From Stigmatella ashevillena (GTDB lineage: Bacteria; Myxococcota; Myxococcia; Myxococcales; Myxococcaceae), in the NCBI RefSeq assembly GCF_028368975.1, contig NZ_JAQNDM010000002.1:1116001-1180000 (forward strand): a stretch of 64,000 nucleotides of DNA. The letters run 5' to 3'. Shown one piece after another: positions 29,510-55,875 of this stretch. How positions within the stretch are numbered: the stretch's first letter is position 1; every line of letters starts with the position of its first letter. Both the position numbers and the translations under genes were made by a program. The notes under the pieces were generated by a model. The model was not told the DNA's origin. It was given only the letters and a program-made list of their open reading frames with translations, and made no database searches.

Positions 29510-29632
29510 GCGCCGTCTCCGTTCCGGACGCCCCATCCACGCCTGGAACGGTCCTGCCGGGGAAGCTCCCTTCGTGGGCACATGGCACGGCCCGTGCTTT
29601 TCGCCGGGTCTGACCATCGCCCCGAGGGCTTG

Positions 29633-30400
29633 ATGAAAATCCAGGGCCATCCCCCTGCCGAACCGGTGAAGGCACCGGCGCTCGGACAGTTCCAGCGGTT
29701 GCTCCAGCAGGCGAAGCCTCCTCAGGCGTCCAGGCTCCGGGAGGCCCTGACCCCGGGCGTCTCCCGTCCGCCTTCCCTCTCACCGCCCCACGCCAGGACG
29801 GTGGTCACCGCTTCCAGTCCCCGGGGAGCCCTGGCCCGGAGTGCTCTCGCCAGCCCGGAGAACCTCGGCCAGGCGCGTCAGCACATGCATGGAGAAGCCC
29901 AGCGCCTGCGGACGGTGAGGACCGAAGCCCAAGCCGCTTCTCAGGGTCAGGGGGAGCACCGCCTGCACGAGTTGCTCTTCCGGGAGCTGGCCCGGGAACC
30001 TTCCCCTGGACCGGGAGCGGGCCTCCCACCACGCGCCCCACTGCTTCCTCCCGAGCCTTCACGGGAACCGCCTGCCGGCGAGCACCTGTCCGGCCCAGAG
30101 GGCCTTCCCAGGACTTCGGGCGAAGCGTCCGTTGAGGCCCCGGAGGCACCGCTCCAGGTGCAGGCCACCCTGGAACTCATCGAGCGGATCGAAGTCTTCG
30201 TGAAGTCGCAGCGGCCCGCGCTGCGGATGAGCCTCGGAGGGCCCCTGGCCGCCACCGTCGAGATCGAGCGCACCGGCCCCCGCGAGGTGGCCCTGCGCAT
30301 TCAAGGACGCCAGGGCCCCCTGGCCGAAGAACACCTCTCACGCATCCGCGAAGGACTGGAAGCCCGAGGCTTGCGGCTCCGAGCACTGCACACGGTGTGA
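29633..30400 (+). CDS. Pro/Arg-rich protein with FliK/SctP-like C-terminus (tentative)
   Basis: 255 aa, no signal peptide. Residues 1-180 are disordered and rich in Pro, Arg, Ala and Gln. The last 75 residues (from IERIEVFVKSQRPALRMSLG) are ordered and resemble the C-terminal gating domain of flagellar FliK or injectisome SctP/HrpP proteins: LRMSLGG followed by VEIE and VALRIQG strands and an amphipathic helix. The N-terminal disorder is also typical. Myxobacteria lack flagella, so the protein would belong to a type III-like secretion apparatus or be unrelated. ATG 29633 has GAGGG 5 nt upstream. Confidence 0.6.
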   Translation: MKIQGHPPAEPVKAPALGQFQRLLQQAKPPQASRLREALTPGVSRPPSLSPPHARTVVTASSPRGALARSALASPENLGQARQHMHGEAQRLRTVRTEAQAASQGQGEHRLHELLFRELAREPSPGPGAGLPPRAPLLPPEPSREPPAGEHLSGPEGLPRTSGEASVEAPEAPLQVQATLELIERIEVFVKSQRPALRMSLGGPLAATVEIERTGPREVALRIQGRQGPLAEEHLSRIREGLEARGLRLRALHTV

Positions 30401-51636: not shown

Positions 51637-52794
51637 TCAGTTGAGGGAAGAACCGGCCACGCTCTGGTACAGCGCGTGGTGGCGCTGGACCATGCGCTCC
51701 AGGGACAGCTCCTTCTGGACGAAGGCCCGCGCGGCCTTGCCCATCTGCTGGGCGTGCCCGGGGTCGGACAGGATGCGGCGGAAGGCCTGGCACAGCCGCG
51801 CCGGGTCTTCAGGAGGCACCACCAGCCCCCGCTCCCCATCGACGATGAGGTCCGTGTTGGCCCCCACCGACGTCACCACCATGGGAAGCCCCGCGGCCAT
51901 GCCCTCCATGACGGCATTGGACATGCCCTCGGCGGAGGAGCAGAGCACCCCCATCGTCGCCCGGGCATAGAGCGCCGGCACGTCGATGCGGTGGCCCAGG
52001 AAGTGGGCGATGTCCGACACCCCCATCTCCGCGGCCTGCTTCTCCAGATCGGCCCGGCGAGGCCCGTCTCCCACCAGGAAGGCATGCAAGGTCAGCCCCT
52101 CCTGGCGCAGCAGGCGCAACGCCTGGAGCAGATCCTCCTGGCGCTTCACCGGGTGGTTCATGTTGGCCACGTGCAGCACCACCGGCGCCCCGCCCGTCTC
52201 CGGCACGGGCTGAAGCAGCCCCTCCTGCATCCGCGCATCGAAGCGCGGCAGATCCAACCCATTGTGGATGACGCTCACGCGTGAGGCCGGAACGCCCTCC
52301 TCTTCCACGAGCATGCGGCGGATGGCCTCCGCGTTGGCCACCACATGGTCGGCCAGGCGGCTGAACCCCGCGTGGACGGCCCGCTTGGCCGGACCGTGCC
52401 AGTGGGCCAGATCCAACCGCCCCACGATGACCTTCGTCCCCGCCAGCTTCGCCGCTGGGACGACCAGCATCGTCGAGTAGAAGTCGTGCACGTGCACCAA
52501 CGAGATCCGCTGCTGCTTGAACCACCGGGCCAGCCGGAGGATCTGCCAGGCCGTGTTCGGCCTCATCAATGAACCGTTGAGCGGAAACTCCTCTGGCTTG
52601 AAGCCGAGATCCCGGAGCGTTCCCACCAAGGGCCCCGCATCCTGAAGAACGGAGACCTGGAGACGGTAGCTCTGCGGTAACCCGCGGAGGAGCTCCAGCA
52701 CCTGAACTTCCGTGCCACCAATGTGAAATGACCGGGTGAACTGCATCAAGCGGATGGGCTTCTCGCCCTGTCCCGCTGCCTTCTCAGGCCGCAT
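51637..52794 (-). CDS. Group 1 (GT4) glycosyltransferase, candidate spore-coat ExoK
   Basis: 385 aa, GT-B fold. N-terminal acceptor domain (FTRSFHIGGTEVQVLELLRGL) and C-terminal nucleotide-sugar domain with VHVANMNHPVKRQEDLLQAL and the E-x7-E motif in AEGMSNAVMEG, typical of GT4 retaining transferases. It overlaps the Wzy gene by 11 bp and so is translationally coupled. As I recall, M. xanthus ExoK, a glycosyltransferase of spore coat polysaccharide, is next to the Wzy gene ExoJ; I infer orthology from gene pair and location, without a search. Start ATG 52794. Confidence 0.85.
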   Translation of the reverse strand: MRPEKAAGQGEKPIRLMQFTRSFHIGGTEVQVLELLRGLPQSYRLQVSVLQDAGPLVGTLRDLGFKPEEFPLNGSLMRPNTAWQILRLARWFKQQRISLVHVHDFYSTMLVVPAAKLAGTKVIVGRLDLAHWHGPAKRAVHAGFSRLADHVVANAEAIRRMLVEEEGVPASRVSVIHNGLDLPRFDARMQEGLLQPVPETGGAPVVLHVANMNHPVKRQEDLLQALRLLRQEGLTLHAFLVGDGPRRADLEKQAAEMGVSDIAHFLGHRIDVPALYARATMGVLCSSAEGMSNAVMEGMAAGLPMVVTSVGANTDLIVDGERGLVVPPEDPARLCQAFRRILSDPGHAQQMGKAARAFVQKELSLERMVQRHHALYQSVAGSSLN

Positions 52795-54067
52795 GCCCTG
52801 ACCCCTCCCACGCCGCCGCGCTCTTGTCCGCGGCCGGCATCCGTTGCACCACCAAGGCGGTCTCCGCTCGAGATTGGGCGATGCGATGCGCGCTCGCCGC
52901 CAGTCCGAACAACACGTAGAGGTGCGCGGACAAGATGTAACCCGAGAAGAGATCGCACACGAGATAGCCTGTCATTGATGCCGCCAGGGCACGGGCCAGC
53001 CAGCCCATTTGCGAGTCCTTCGAGGCCGCGAAGGCACCGCCCGTGGCGCCCCCCGCGAACACGAGGAACAACCCCAGTCCTATGAACCCCAGCTCGCCAA
53101 TGACGTCCAAGAAGATGTTGTGCGCCACGTAGGCCCGCCGCGCCTCGGGGGGCGCATAGAGCGGCCACGCGTAGCGGAAGCCTCCCGCGCCCACCCCCAG
53201 CAACGGCTTGTCCAGGCTGATGCGCGAAGCCACCTGCCACGCATAGACACGGCCCATGGCGGAGGCGTCCTCATGGAAGGACGTCACCGTCTCATTGCGC
53301 TTCCAGAAGCTCTGCGGCGCGAACAGCACCAGCCCCAGCGCCAGCAACGAACCCACCACCAGGGCCTGAATGCGCCGCTTCTCGCGGATGGCCCACACCC
53401 CCATCGCCACCGAGAGGCCAATGAAACCTCCCCGCGAGTGGCTCAGGACGATGGCCACCACCGACAGCACCGCCGCCAGGGCACACGCCGCGCGCAGCAA
53501 CCAGCCGGACTCCTTGCGGGCCAGGAAGGCCACCGCCAGGGGCACCACCAGCGCCATGTTCATGGCCATGTGGTTCGGGTCGGCGTAGACGCCCACCCAT
53601 CGGGACCGGAAGCCTTCCACCATGTCCACGCCCGTGCGGTACCAGTCGATGACGCCAATGGAGGTGACGATGGAGCCCAGCACCATCGCCCCACACACCA
53701 GGGCCAGCCGCCGCCCCGAGGTGATGACATTGATGATGGTCAGATAGATGGCGGTGAGCTTGAGCAGCTCGATGCCCGTGAAACGTGTCAGCTCCGGATG
53801 GACAGACCAGGCAACGGAGGCAAACGCCAAGCCCGAGAAGGCCAGGAGCGATAACCCCCGTGCACCGTCGAAGTAGAGCGGCTCCGCGCGCCCCAGCCGG
53901 CGCAGGGCCATCAGCCCCGCCGCCAGTCCTGAGGTCAATAACGCCAGCCGCAGTGGTGCCAGGGCGGGAATCCACTCGCCTGGCACCGCGTACATGACCG
54001 CCGCGAAGCCCACCAGCGCGTAGAATGCCAGGACATCACGTTGCTGCCCCTGCTCGCCCACACCCAT
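52784..54067 (-). CDS. Wzy-type polysaccharide polymerase (O-antigen ligase family), candidate ExoJ/WzyS
   Basis: 427 aa with about ten membrane helices. The large periplasmic loop holds LSHSRGGFIGL and AHNIFLDVIGELGFIGLG, both marks of the O-antigen ligase/polymerase family (Wzy/WaaL). ATG 54067 has GGAGG 5 nt upstream. The overlap with the GT4 gene and the recalled place of exoJ (MXAN_3026) between pyrD and engB-like genes suggest the spore coat Wzy of M. xanthus. A sigma-54-like element at 54118-54133 lies upstream. A role in O-antigen or another exopolysaccharide cannot be excluded. Confidence 0.85.
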   Translation of the reverse strand: MGVGEQGQQRDVLAFYALVGFAAVMYAVPGEWIPALAPLRLALLTSGLAAGLMALRRLGRAEPLYFDGARGLSLLAFSGLAFASVAWSVHPELTRFTGIELLKLTAIYLTIINVITSGRRLALVCGAMVLGSIVTSIGVIDWYRTGVDMVEGFRSRWVGVYADPNHMAMNMALVVPLAVAFLARKESGWLLRAACALAAVLSVVAIVLSHSRGGFIGLSVAMGVWAIREKRRIQALVVGSLLALGLVLFAPQSFWKRNETVTSFHEDASAMGRVYAWQVASRISLDKPLLGVGAGGFRYAWPLYAPPEARRAYVAHNIFLDVIGELGFIGLGLFLVFAGGATGGAFAASKDSQMGWLARALAASMTGYLVCDLFSGYILSAHLYVLFGLAASAHRIAQSRAETALVVQRMPAADKSAAAWEGSGHAA

Positions 54068-54117
54068 ACCTTCCTCCCGGCTACTTCCGCTTTTCCGGAA
54101 ACGCGTGTCCTGGCCTT

Positions 54118-54133
54118 AGCAGGCAACATGCCA
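54118..54133 (-). promoter_or_regulatory. Sigma-54-like (-24/-12) promoter upstream of the Wzy gene
   Basis: Minus strand TGGCATG, four bases, CTGCT: GG at 54132-54131 and GC at 54120-54119 with the invariant 10-bp spacing, and 10 of 12 matches to the consensus TGGCACG-N4-TTGCT. The predicted start would be about 40 nt before the Wzy ATG. A GCCCAAAAGGGC inverted repeat lies 6 bp further upstream (54140 region). No enhancer-binding protein gene is present here. Confidence 0.5.
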
Positions 54134-54216
54134 GCTGCCCTTTTGGGCAAAAGCCCCGTGGATCCAGTGCCTTGCGGCGGAATGGCTCCGGGACGACGCG
54201 GAGGAAGCTGTAAGAA

Positions 54217-55875
54217 TTACGCTGTCGGATTTCCCTCCATGGGCAACACGACAGACAGGGCCGGGTCCAGCCGGCCTTCCTGAAGGTAGGGAGCGGCGAT
54301 CTCCTCGCGCAGCCGTTCCAAGGACACCCTCACCAGCCGGTGCAGTTCCGGACGCGCTTCGGCCTCCACCTGAGGCTCCAGCGTGGCCAGCGCGCGTTGC
54401 TCGGCGCTGGGGCGCACCACCGGCGCCTGAGGCGTCCCCTCAAAGAGCCGCTCACACAGCTCCACCGTGCGGCCCCCCGGCACGGGCCGTGGATTCACCT
54501 GGCCTTCGAGCACGGCCATGGCCACCGCCGAGACGAAGAGTCGATCCACGCCCAGCACCTCCAACGGCACGCCGAAGCGGGCCACCACCTGGTGGGCCGC
54601 GCTGGCATCGCCCAGCAACCCTTGGAACAGGGCCACCTGGGCCTCCGCCCGCCCCAGCAGCGCCTCGCTGGCGGCGATCTCCCGCAGGGACCGGAAGGGC
54701 ACCGGCTCCGCCCCCGGGACGCGCAGCGCGCGGCGGGGACGCTTGAGGCGCAGCGCCTTGAGGGCCGCGGCCTCCTCCGGGAACACCATCAGCGTGTCGT
54801 CCACGCGGGCCTCGGCCCTCTTGGCCAGCCGGTCCGCCCGGAACTTCAGGGCCAAGGTCAGCGAGAAGCCCACCTGGAAGATGCGCCGCAGCGGCGTGTC
54901 ACGCACGAGATCCGGGGCGAGGGCGGGCTCCGCCCCGCTCAGGTGCTCCAACCCGAGCGACAGGTAGTCGCGCACCATCTCTCCCACGGAACGCACGGCC
55001 TCCAGGTCTCCGGGATCCGCCAGCTCCGCCACCAGGGCCGCGTTGGCCACCCCGCGCAACTCGTCCTCGAGGTTCTCCCGCTCGAGCTCGGACAGGCCTC
55101 GCACGGCGGCGTCTAGGTAGTCCACCCGTCCCTGGGCGGGAACGAGCGCGGCCTGCCCACTCCGGGCGGGTGCAGTCCCGGTGTCCACGCGGCTGAAGAG
55201 GCTGGCCGCCTCGTCGAGCGTGGGGAAGCCCAGATCCTGGAGCCGCGCGGTGCGGAAGCGGTAGGCAGCCTCCTCCAGCTCACTGGGGATCTCCCAGCGC
55301 GTGGCCTCCAGCAGGCGCACCGCTTCGAAGGGGTTCTCGGCGATCAAGTCGTTGAGGATCATCCGCAGCGCCGCCTGCTCCGCCCCCTCGACCTTGAACT
55401 CGACGAGGTAGCGCCCCTCGGGCGTCTCCATCGTCACGCCGGGCGGATGAACGTCCGGGTCCTCCTCCAAGTCATAGACGGCGGTGAACTCGCGCAGCAG
55501 GTACTCGAGGATCTCGAGGTCCATGCCATGCAGCTTGCGCAGGAACTCCTCGGGCTCATCGCCCCGCGCGGCCCGCAGCCAGGTGAGCACCCCGTGCGAG
55601 TCGATGCGATCCCGCTTCCATGCGCCCAGGTCCACGAACGCCCGGAACTGAGCAGGCGAGGCGAGCTGAACGAGATCGGTGGCATCCGCCAGCCCTATTT
55701 CCTGGAGGGTGATGAAGAGCAGCTCCGCCGGGAGCGACCGCACCAGGGCCTGCGCCTCGGGGGACTCGATGAGGGCATCCAGCCTCTTGCGGGGCGGGAG
55801 TTGGGTGAGCTGCCGACGCAACTCCCGGAGGGCGAGCTGCGCATCCTTGCCGTTTCCCTGATTGTTCTCGGGCAC
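54217..55875 (-). CDS. DUF6178-family protein, 552 aa
   Basis: A large soluble, mostly helical protein (QLALRELRRQLTQLPPRKRLDALIE at the N-terminus; LIAENPFEAVRLLEATRWEIPSELEEAAY central). I recognise the general pattern of DUF6178, known mainly from Deltaproteobacteria/Myxococcota, without known function; assignment is by memory. No signal peptide, membrane helix or catalytic motif is seen. GTG 55875 has TAGG upstream. It follows engB by 23 bp, so cytochrome-engB-DUF6178 look like an operon. Confidence 0.75.
   Translation of the reverse strand: MPENNQGNGKDAQLALRELRRQLTQLPPRKRLDALIESPEAQALVRSLPAELLFITLQEIGLADATDLVQLASPAQFRAFVDLGAWKRDRIDSHGVLTWLRAARGDEPEEFLRKLHGMDLEILEYLLREFTAVYDLEEDPDVHPPGVTMETPEGRYLVEFKVEGAEQAALRMILNDLIAENPFEAVRLLEATRWEIPSELEEAAYRFRTARLQDLGFPTLDEAASLFSRVDTGTAPARSGQAALVPAQGRVDYLDAAVRGLSELERENLEDELRGVANAALVAELADPGDLEAVRSVGEMVRDYLSLGLEHLSGAEPALAPDLVRDTPLRRIFQVGFSLTLALKFRADRLAKRAEARVDDTLMVFPEEAAALKALRLKRPRRALRVPGAEPVPFRSLREIAASEALLGRAEAQVALFQGLLGDASAAHQVVARFGVPLEVLGVDRLFVSAVAMAVLEGQVNPRPVPGGRTVELCERLFEGTPQAPVVRPSAEQRALATLEPQVEAEARPELHRLVRVSLERLREEIAAPYLQEGRLDPALSVVLPMEGNPTA

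Follow-up and report, generated by a model that had tools for sequence, protein, structure and literature searches.

Comparative evidence for a sigma-54-dependent promoter upstream of a detached wzy-glycosyltransferase pair of the spore-coat polysaccharide pathway in Stigmatella ashevillena

When the genes of a polysaccharide pathway are scattered over a chromosome, the question arises of how the separate fragments come to be expressed jointly. We addressed this question for a two-gene unit in a stretch of 64,000 nucleotides from Stigmatella ashevillena (hereafter, the window), in which genes for a Wzy-type polymerase and a glycosyltransferase (GT) lie downstream of an intergenic interval that spans exactly 54068-54216, bounded by the wzy start codon (54067) and a DUF6178 stop codon (54217). 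The two genes overlap by 11 bp and are thus probably co-transcribed.

51637 to 52794, minus strand: glycosyltransferase gene with GT4/GT1 domains, 385 aa (domain search)
52784 to 54067, minus strand: Wzy polymerase gene with a Wzy_C domain (PF04932), 427 aa, orthologous to the Wzy of the spore coat (MASC) (domain search, locus comparison)
54217 to 55875, minus strand: DUF6178 gene, the upstream neighbor on the same strand (ORF and domain evidence)

The initial annotation of the window regarded the pair as standing apart from any other polysaccharide gene and as belonging to a split pathway. The first statement holds for the window ORFs that were scanned, which near the pair encode RpoB/RpoC, ribosomal proteins, EF-Tu, glycine cleavage proteins, DUF6178, and a GTPase of the ribosome-binding type. 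The DUF6178-wzy neighborhood is retained in families f1, f2, and f3. The second statement can now be extended, with the pathway identified as the spore-coat (exo/MASC) pathway. Homologs of exoA-I were found on contig C1 of the same genome by their domain order (Poly_export, no Pfam match at the ExoB position, Wzz, AAA_31, Bac_transf, CofD, GNAT, DegT, and GNAT), and a second locus, approximately 41 kb off, encodes a polysaccharide deacetylase, a Wzx flippase, a hexapeptide transferase, and a GT; the names exoA-I were assigned by analogy with M. xanthus, and exoL, M, and N likewise by analogy. Within sister family f5, orthologs of the window wzy and GT genes share a single cluster with exoA-I and exoL (L141, L149-L152), where L141, L149, and L150 contain exo genes, exoL, wzy, and GT, and L151/L152 contain exoA-C. 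Because this cluster unites wzy and GT with the exo genes, the window pair can be recognized as the Wzy portion that has become detached from the rest of the spore-coat pathway: its Wzy_C polymerase adjoins a GT, and its ortholog is contiguous with the exo cluster where that cluster is unsplit. The M. xanthus ortholog of the window Wzy, approximately 77% identical, is probably encoded by MXAN_3026.

The interval upstream of wzy contains a sequence (TGGCATGTTGCCTGCT, 54118-54133, minus strand) with the form of a sigma-54 promoter, and sigma-54 itself is encoded in the genome (PF04552 at C2:7714275, E 6.3e-65). In bacteria that use this factor, transcription starts 12 bp past the GC of the -12 box, which together with the sequence allows a start to be predicted.

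54118 to 54133, minus strand: sigma-54 -24/-12 element, TGGCATG-TTGC-CTGCT (sequence, 25/25 orthologs, alignment)
54127 to 54133, minus strand: -24 box
54118 to 54122, minus strand: -12 box
54106 to 54108, minus strand: predicted transcription start, 12 bp past the GC of the -12 box (sequence and established sigma-54 geometry)
54073 to 54077, minus strand: ribosome-binding site GGAGG (sequence)

As the initial annotation had described, TGGCATG-N4-CTGCT lies on the minus strand directly before the Wzy-type gene, and its GG (54131-54132) and GC (54119-54120) have exactly 10 bp between them. The site lies 66 bp before the wzy ATG and, when scored against the consensus TGGCACG-N4-TTGCT with GG-N10-GC (12 defined positions), matches at 10/12 positions with exact spacing. 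Only three sites reaching at least 10/12 occur in the window when both strands are counted; the wzy site is the sole zero-mismatch occurrence of TGGCAYGNNNNYTGCW in the 64 kb, and TGGCATG-N4-CTGCT occurs three times in the 10.95-Mb genome, the wzy site included. When two mismatches are allowed, the window yields 25 occurrences against 38 expected, which is no excess, so that counts alone provide no evidence for the site and conservation has to provide it. The best consensus match in the window (11/12) is TGGCACGGCCCGTGCT at 29583-29598 (plus strand), located at the start of an ORF (29582-30400) without a Pfam match.

We compared orthologous upstream regions from 24 further genomes of Hyalangium, Myxococcus, Pyxidicoccus, Corallococcus, Citreicoccus, and Archangium (n = 25 with the window, all Myxococcaceae), whose Wzy proteins are 71-87% identical. 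A site of at least 10/12 was present within 200 bp upstream of wzy in 25/25 orthologs, compared with a 0.7% chance for each shuffled 200-bp upstream sequence, although the sequences are related and the 25 orthologs are not 25 independent trials. The distance of the site from the wzy ATG varies from -66 to -164, and the boxes are kept nonetheless. In an alignment of 13 sequences, mean pairwise identity was 0.91 for the 12 box positions, 0.52 for the 4-bp spacer, and 0.56 for the remaining region, and when a 7-4-5 mask was slid along the alignment the -24/-12 site ranked best among 157 placements. Conserved boxes around a free N4 spacer are the signature expected for sigma-54 binding. The GG-N10-GC arrangement is thus kept among other myxobacteria, and the comparative evidence strongly supports the sigma-54 reading that the initial annotation had proposed.

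Two further features of these regions deserve mention. Corallococcus and two relatives (L005, L006, L008-L012, L014, L015, and L020; the 135-165 bp upstream of wzy) carry 70-100 bp of variable sequence that separates the -12 box from a conserved GGCCAGG-CACGCGT leader and contains inverted repeats such as GGCTCGC..GCGAGCC, yielding a long and variable 5' leader. Separately, a record that bears the name Comamonas sp. KCTC 72670 (L013) contains a myxobacterial wzy locus; its upstream region is nearly that of Myxococcus xanthus, which suggests that the record name is probably wrong.

The distribution of the site outside this group is associated with the arrangement of the pathway. Sites of 10-11/12 precede the detached wzy genes of f2, f9, and some f3 genomes, and the larger f2, f3, and f9 loci show no exo operon adjoining wzy. 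In f5, where wzy belongs to a contiguous exo cluster, the wzy copies were without a site of their own; the exoA gene of that family is preceded, approximately 63 bp upstream, by TGGCACG-AGGT-GTGCT or TGGCATG-CGCC-GTGCT (L151:3139-3154 and L152:4117-4132, both minus strand). No site was found upstream of wzy in f4, f6, f7, and two f3 genomes. The simplest reading of this modest sample would be that sigma-54 control predates the split and that the wzy fragment retained or reacquired it. The comparison offers a fairly clean case in which promoter presence tracks operon break-up across families.

Among the sister operons, anchored at the -24/-12 positions, exoA has a TGGCACR-N4-STGCT site in 13/13 species and exoL a TGGCAYY-N4-VTGCA site in all 13, as the second-ranked candidate in one of them. 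Further upstream, the wzy interval contains the following.

54208 to 54220, minus strand: upstream element 1, GTAATTCTTACAG, a candidate enhancer site whose distance from the -24 box is 75-87 bp (conservation 0.81)
54145 to 54164, minus strand: upstream element 2, GATCCACGGGGCTTTTGCCC, approximately 30 bp before the -24 box (conservation 0.69), with a similar element at equal distance before exoA
54137 to 54148, no strand assigned: GCCC-AAAA-GGGC dyad (conservation 0.55 versus an intergenic background of 0.56)

From their sequences, exoA and wzy appear to share both an element approximately 30 bp before the -24 box (GATCCANGGG..TTT) and an element 75-90 bp before it (GTAATTCTTTC / CCGGAAATTTTTCCCGG), the exoA counterpart of element 1 being the near-palindrome CCGGAAATTTTTCCCGG. 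Element 1 overlaps the DUF6178 stop codon, which may explain part of its conservation. An exoA matrix applied to the wzy promoters gave moderate scores only, many with p values of 0.05-0.3; the best matches lay no more than 2 bp from the same position in 7/13 species for element 2, which is degenerate in Corallococcus, and in 10/13 for element 1. The two elements together were not consistently present in the exoL promoters of the 13 species. The exoL promoter of L042, TGGCATC-N4-ATGCA, is located approximately 70 bp upstream of 10298 (minus strand); in the window genus and Hyalangium, the exoL promoter has an element resembling AATTTTTC of exoA, placed approximately 10 bp further upstream.

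A composite pattern of element 2 and the boxes matched only exoA and wzy in the 10.95-Mb genome, but the pattern was built from these two promoters and its specificity is not an independent test. An earlier version (GATYCANGGNNTTT...) had the wrong spacing and returned zero matches, and an occurrence of TGGCGTGCATGCTGCT in L036, where the exoB reading frame begins, was taken as chance. A looser element 2 pattern yielded many more matches in 58 family genomes than a reversed control and also picked out sigma-54-like sites before unrelated genes, which suggests that element 2 may accompany sigma-54-like promoters in general. In large-genome relatives (L153-L159 and L161), TCCAGGNGTTTG-like elements precede TGGCA..TGCT sites of unrelated genes by 17 or 27 bp, spacings that are one helical turn apart.

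Collectively, we infer that the interval is very probably the sigma-54-dependent promoter of a two-gene wzy-GT unit of the spore-coat polysaccharide pathway. Sigma-54 RNA polymerase would wait at 54118-54133 as a closed complex, which an enhancer-binding protein attached further upstream, perhaps to the conserved 54208-54220 element, would remodel through ATP hydrolysis. Transcription would then begin near 54107 and produce a leader of approximately 40 nt with a good ribosome site. Since exoA and exoL also have conserved -24/-12 sites, and exoA and wzy seemingly share two elements at like spacing, the separated parts of the pathway could be switched on by one signal, and the scattered pieces can probably be turned on together. 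A sigma-54 promoter at each fragment would constitute a regulatory answer to the joint expression of a scattered pathway and provides a testable prediction for control of the spore-coat polymerase.

Developmental control of wzy is plausible from the literature. Expression of the exo and nfs loci of M. xanthus peaks at sporulation (PMC6791715), the exo operon is FruA-dependent, with FruA binding upstream of its promoter (PMC4320627), and nla6 is strongly induced (20.6-fold) in glycerol sporulation, in which an nla6 mutant fails (PMC2875238). Nla6 and/or FruA are leads as candidate activators. Nla6 reportedly binds the exo and MXAN3259 promoters (Giglio et al., 2015). It is unlikely, in our assessment, that the promoter depends on sigma-54 but answers to a vegetative or envelope-stress activator with neither developmental timing nor co-regulation with the exo operons. 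Such an activator would fit the finding that, in other genera, TCCANGGG-TTT elements precede sigma-54-like sites belonging to unrelated genes, and also the failure of the Nla6 consensus to be enriched over shuffled sequence (1.46 matches per wzy promoter versus 1.48 in shuffles, a weak test, with the consensus taken as C(C/A)ACGNNGNC). Against it stand the membership of wzy in the spore-coat pathway, the promoter layout common to wzy and exoA, and the developmental induction of exo in M. xanthus (PMC6791715; PMC4320627).

Very unlikely is an explanation in which wzy-GT is read through from the DUF6178 gene, or transcribed from a sigma-70 or ECF promoter, with the -24/-12 site playing an incidental or minor part. 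The DUF6178 gene, which shares the strand of wzy, lies 149 bp upstream. A scan of the wzy upstream region found neither a terminator nor a sigma-70-like promoter, although a sigma-70 consensus scan can miss myxobacterial housekeeping and ECF promoters. An incidental site would hardly show 91% box conservation with a free N4 spacer, recur at variable distances in every one of the 25 orthologs, or be present again where other families have a detached wzy. Transcription continuing from DUF6178 could nevertheless add to expression. It is also very unlikely that the dyad at 54137-54148, noted in the initial annotation, acts as a regulator-binding operator or a component of the promoter mechanism, as that annotation implied: a GCCC-N4-GGGC arrangement is shared by the window genus with M. 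xanthus and Pyxidicoccus, but the dyad is broken in Hyalangium, Corallococcus, and some Myxococcus and its conservation equals background, leaving it without support as a functional element, and we rejected it as a regulator site.

Returning to the sigma-54 promoter, a broader reading would join its two upstream elements into an undescribed spore-coat promoter architecture, which we offer tentatively and consider doubtful as a whole. An enhancer site lying 75-90 bp from the -24 box on its upstream side would be combined with a second protein-binding element (TCCANGGG-N-TTT) unusually close to that box, about 17 or 27-30 bp before it (one helical turn apart), serving as a coactivator site of myxobacterial sigma-54 promoters. 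The same promoter type would have been reproduced at each fragment when one ancestral exo operon, under sigma-54 control as a whole, came apart.

The split of the MASC pathway, with a separate WzyS, has already been published for M. xanthus (Islam et al., 2020, PMC7310880), and a note in that report mentions genetics on the need for the M. xanthus counterpart in spore-coat synthesis. In the literature accessible to the search, we found no description of the WzyS promoter. As relayed in that report, the M. xanthus arrangement resembles the one described here, with a Wzy_C polymerase that adjoins a GT and is located away from both exoA-I and the locus of Wzx (PMC7310880, citing Perez-Burgos et al., 2020); the species differs, being S. 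ashevillena here. The f5 cluster is consistent with the contiguous cluster reported for Anaeromyxobacter (Islam et al., PMC7310880). The FruA target exo and the reported Nla6 targets exo and MXAN3259 belong to the same pathway, and both corresponding operons have conserved -24/-12 sites here. The wzy site likewise resembles the Nla28-activated sigma-54 promoters of M. xanthus (such as actB, nla6, nla28, and pilA), with their -24/-12 consensus TGGCACG-N4-TTGC(T/A), the pilA promoter being TGGCATG-N4-GTGCT (PMC9765219). The candidate upstream elements of wzy differ from the Nla28 half-site CT(C/G)CG(C/G)AG and, unlike most reported Nla28 targets, which lie inside genes (PMC9765219), the wzy site is intergenic and conserved between genera.
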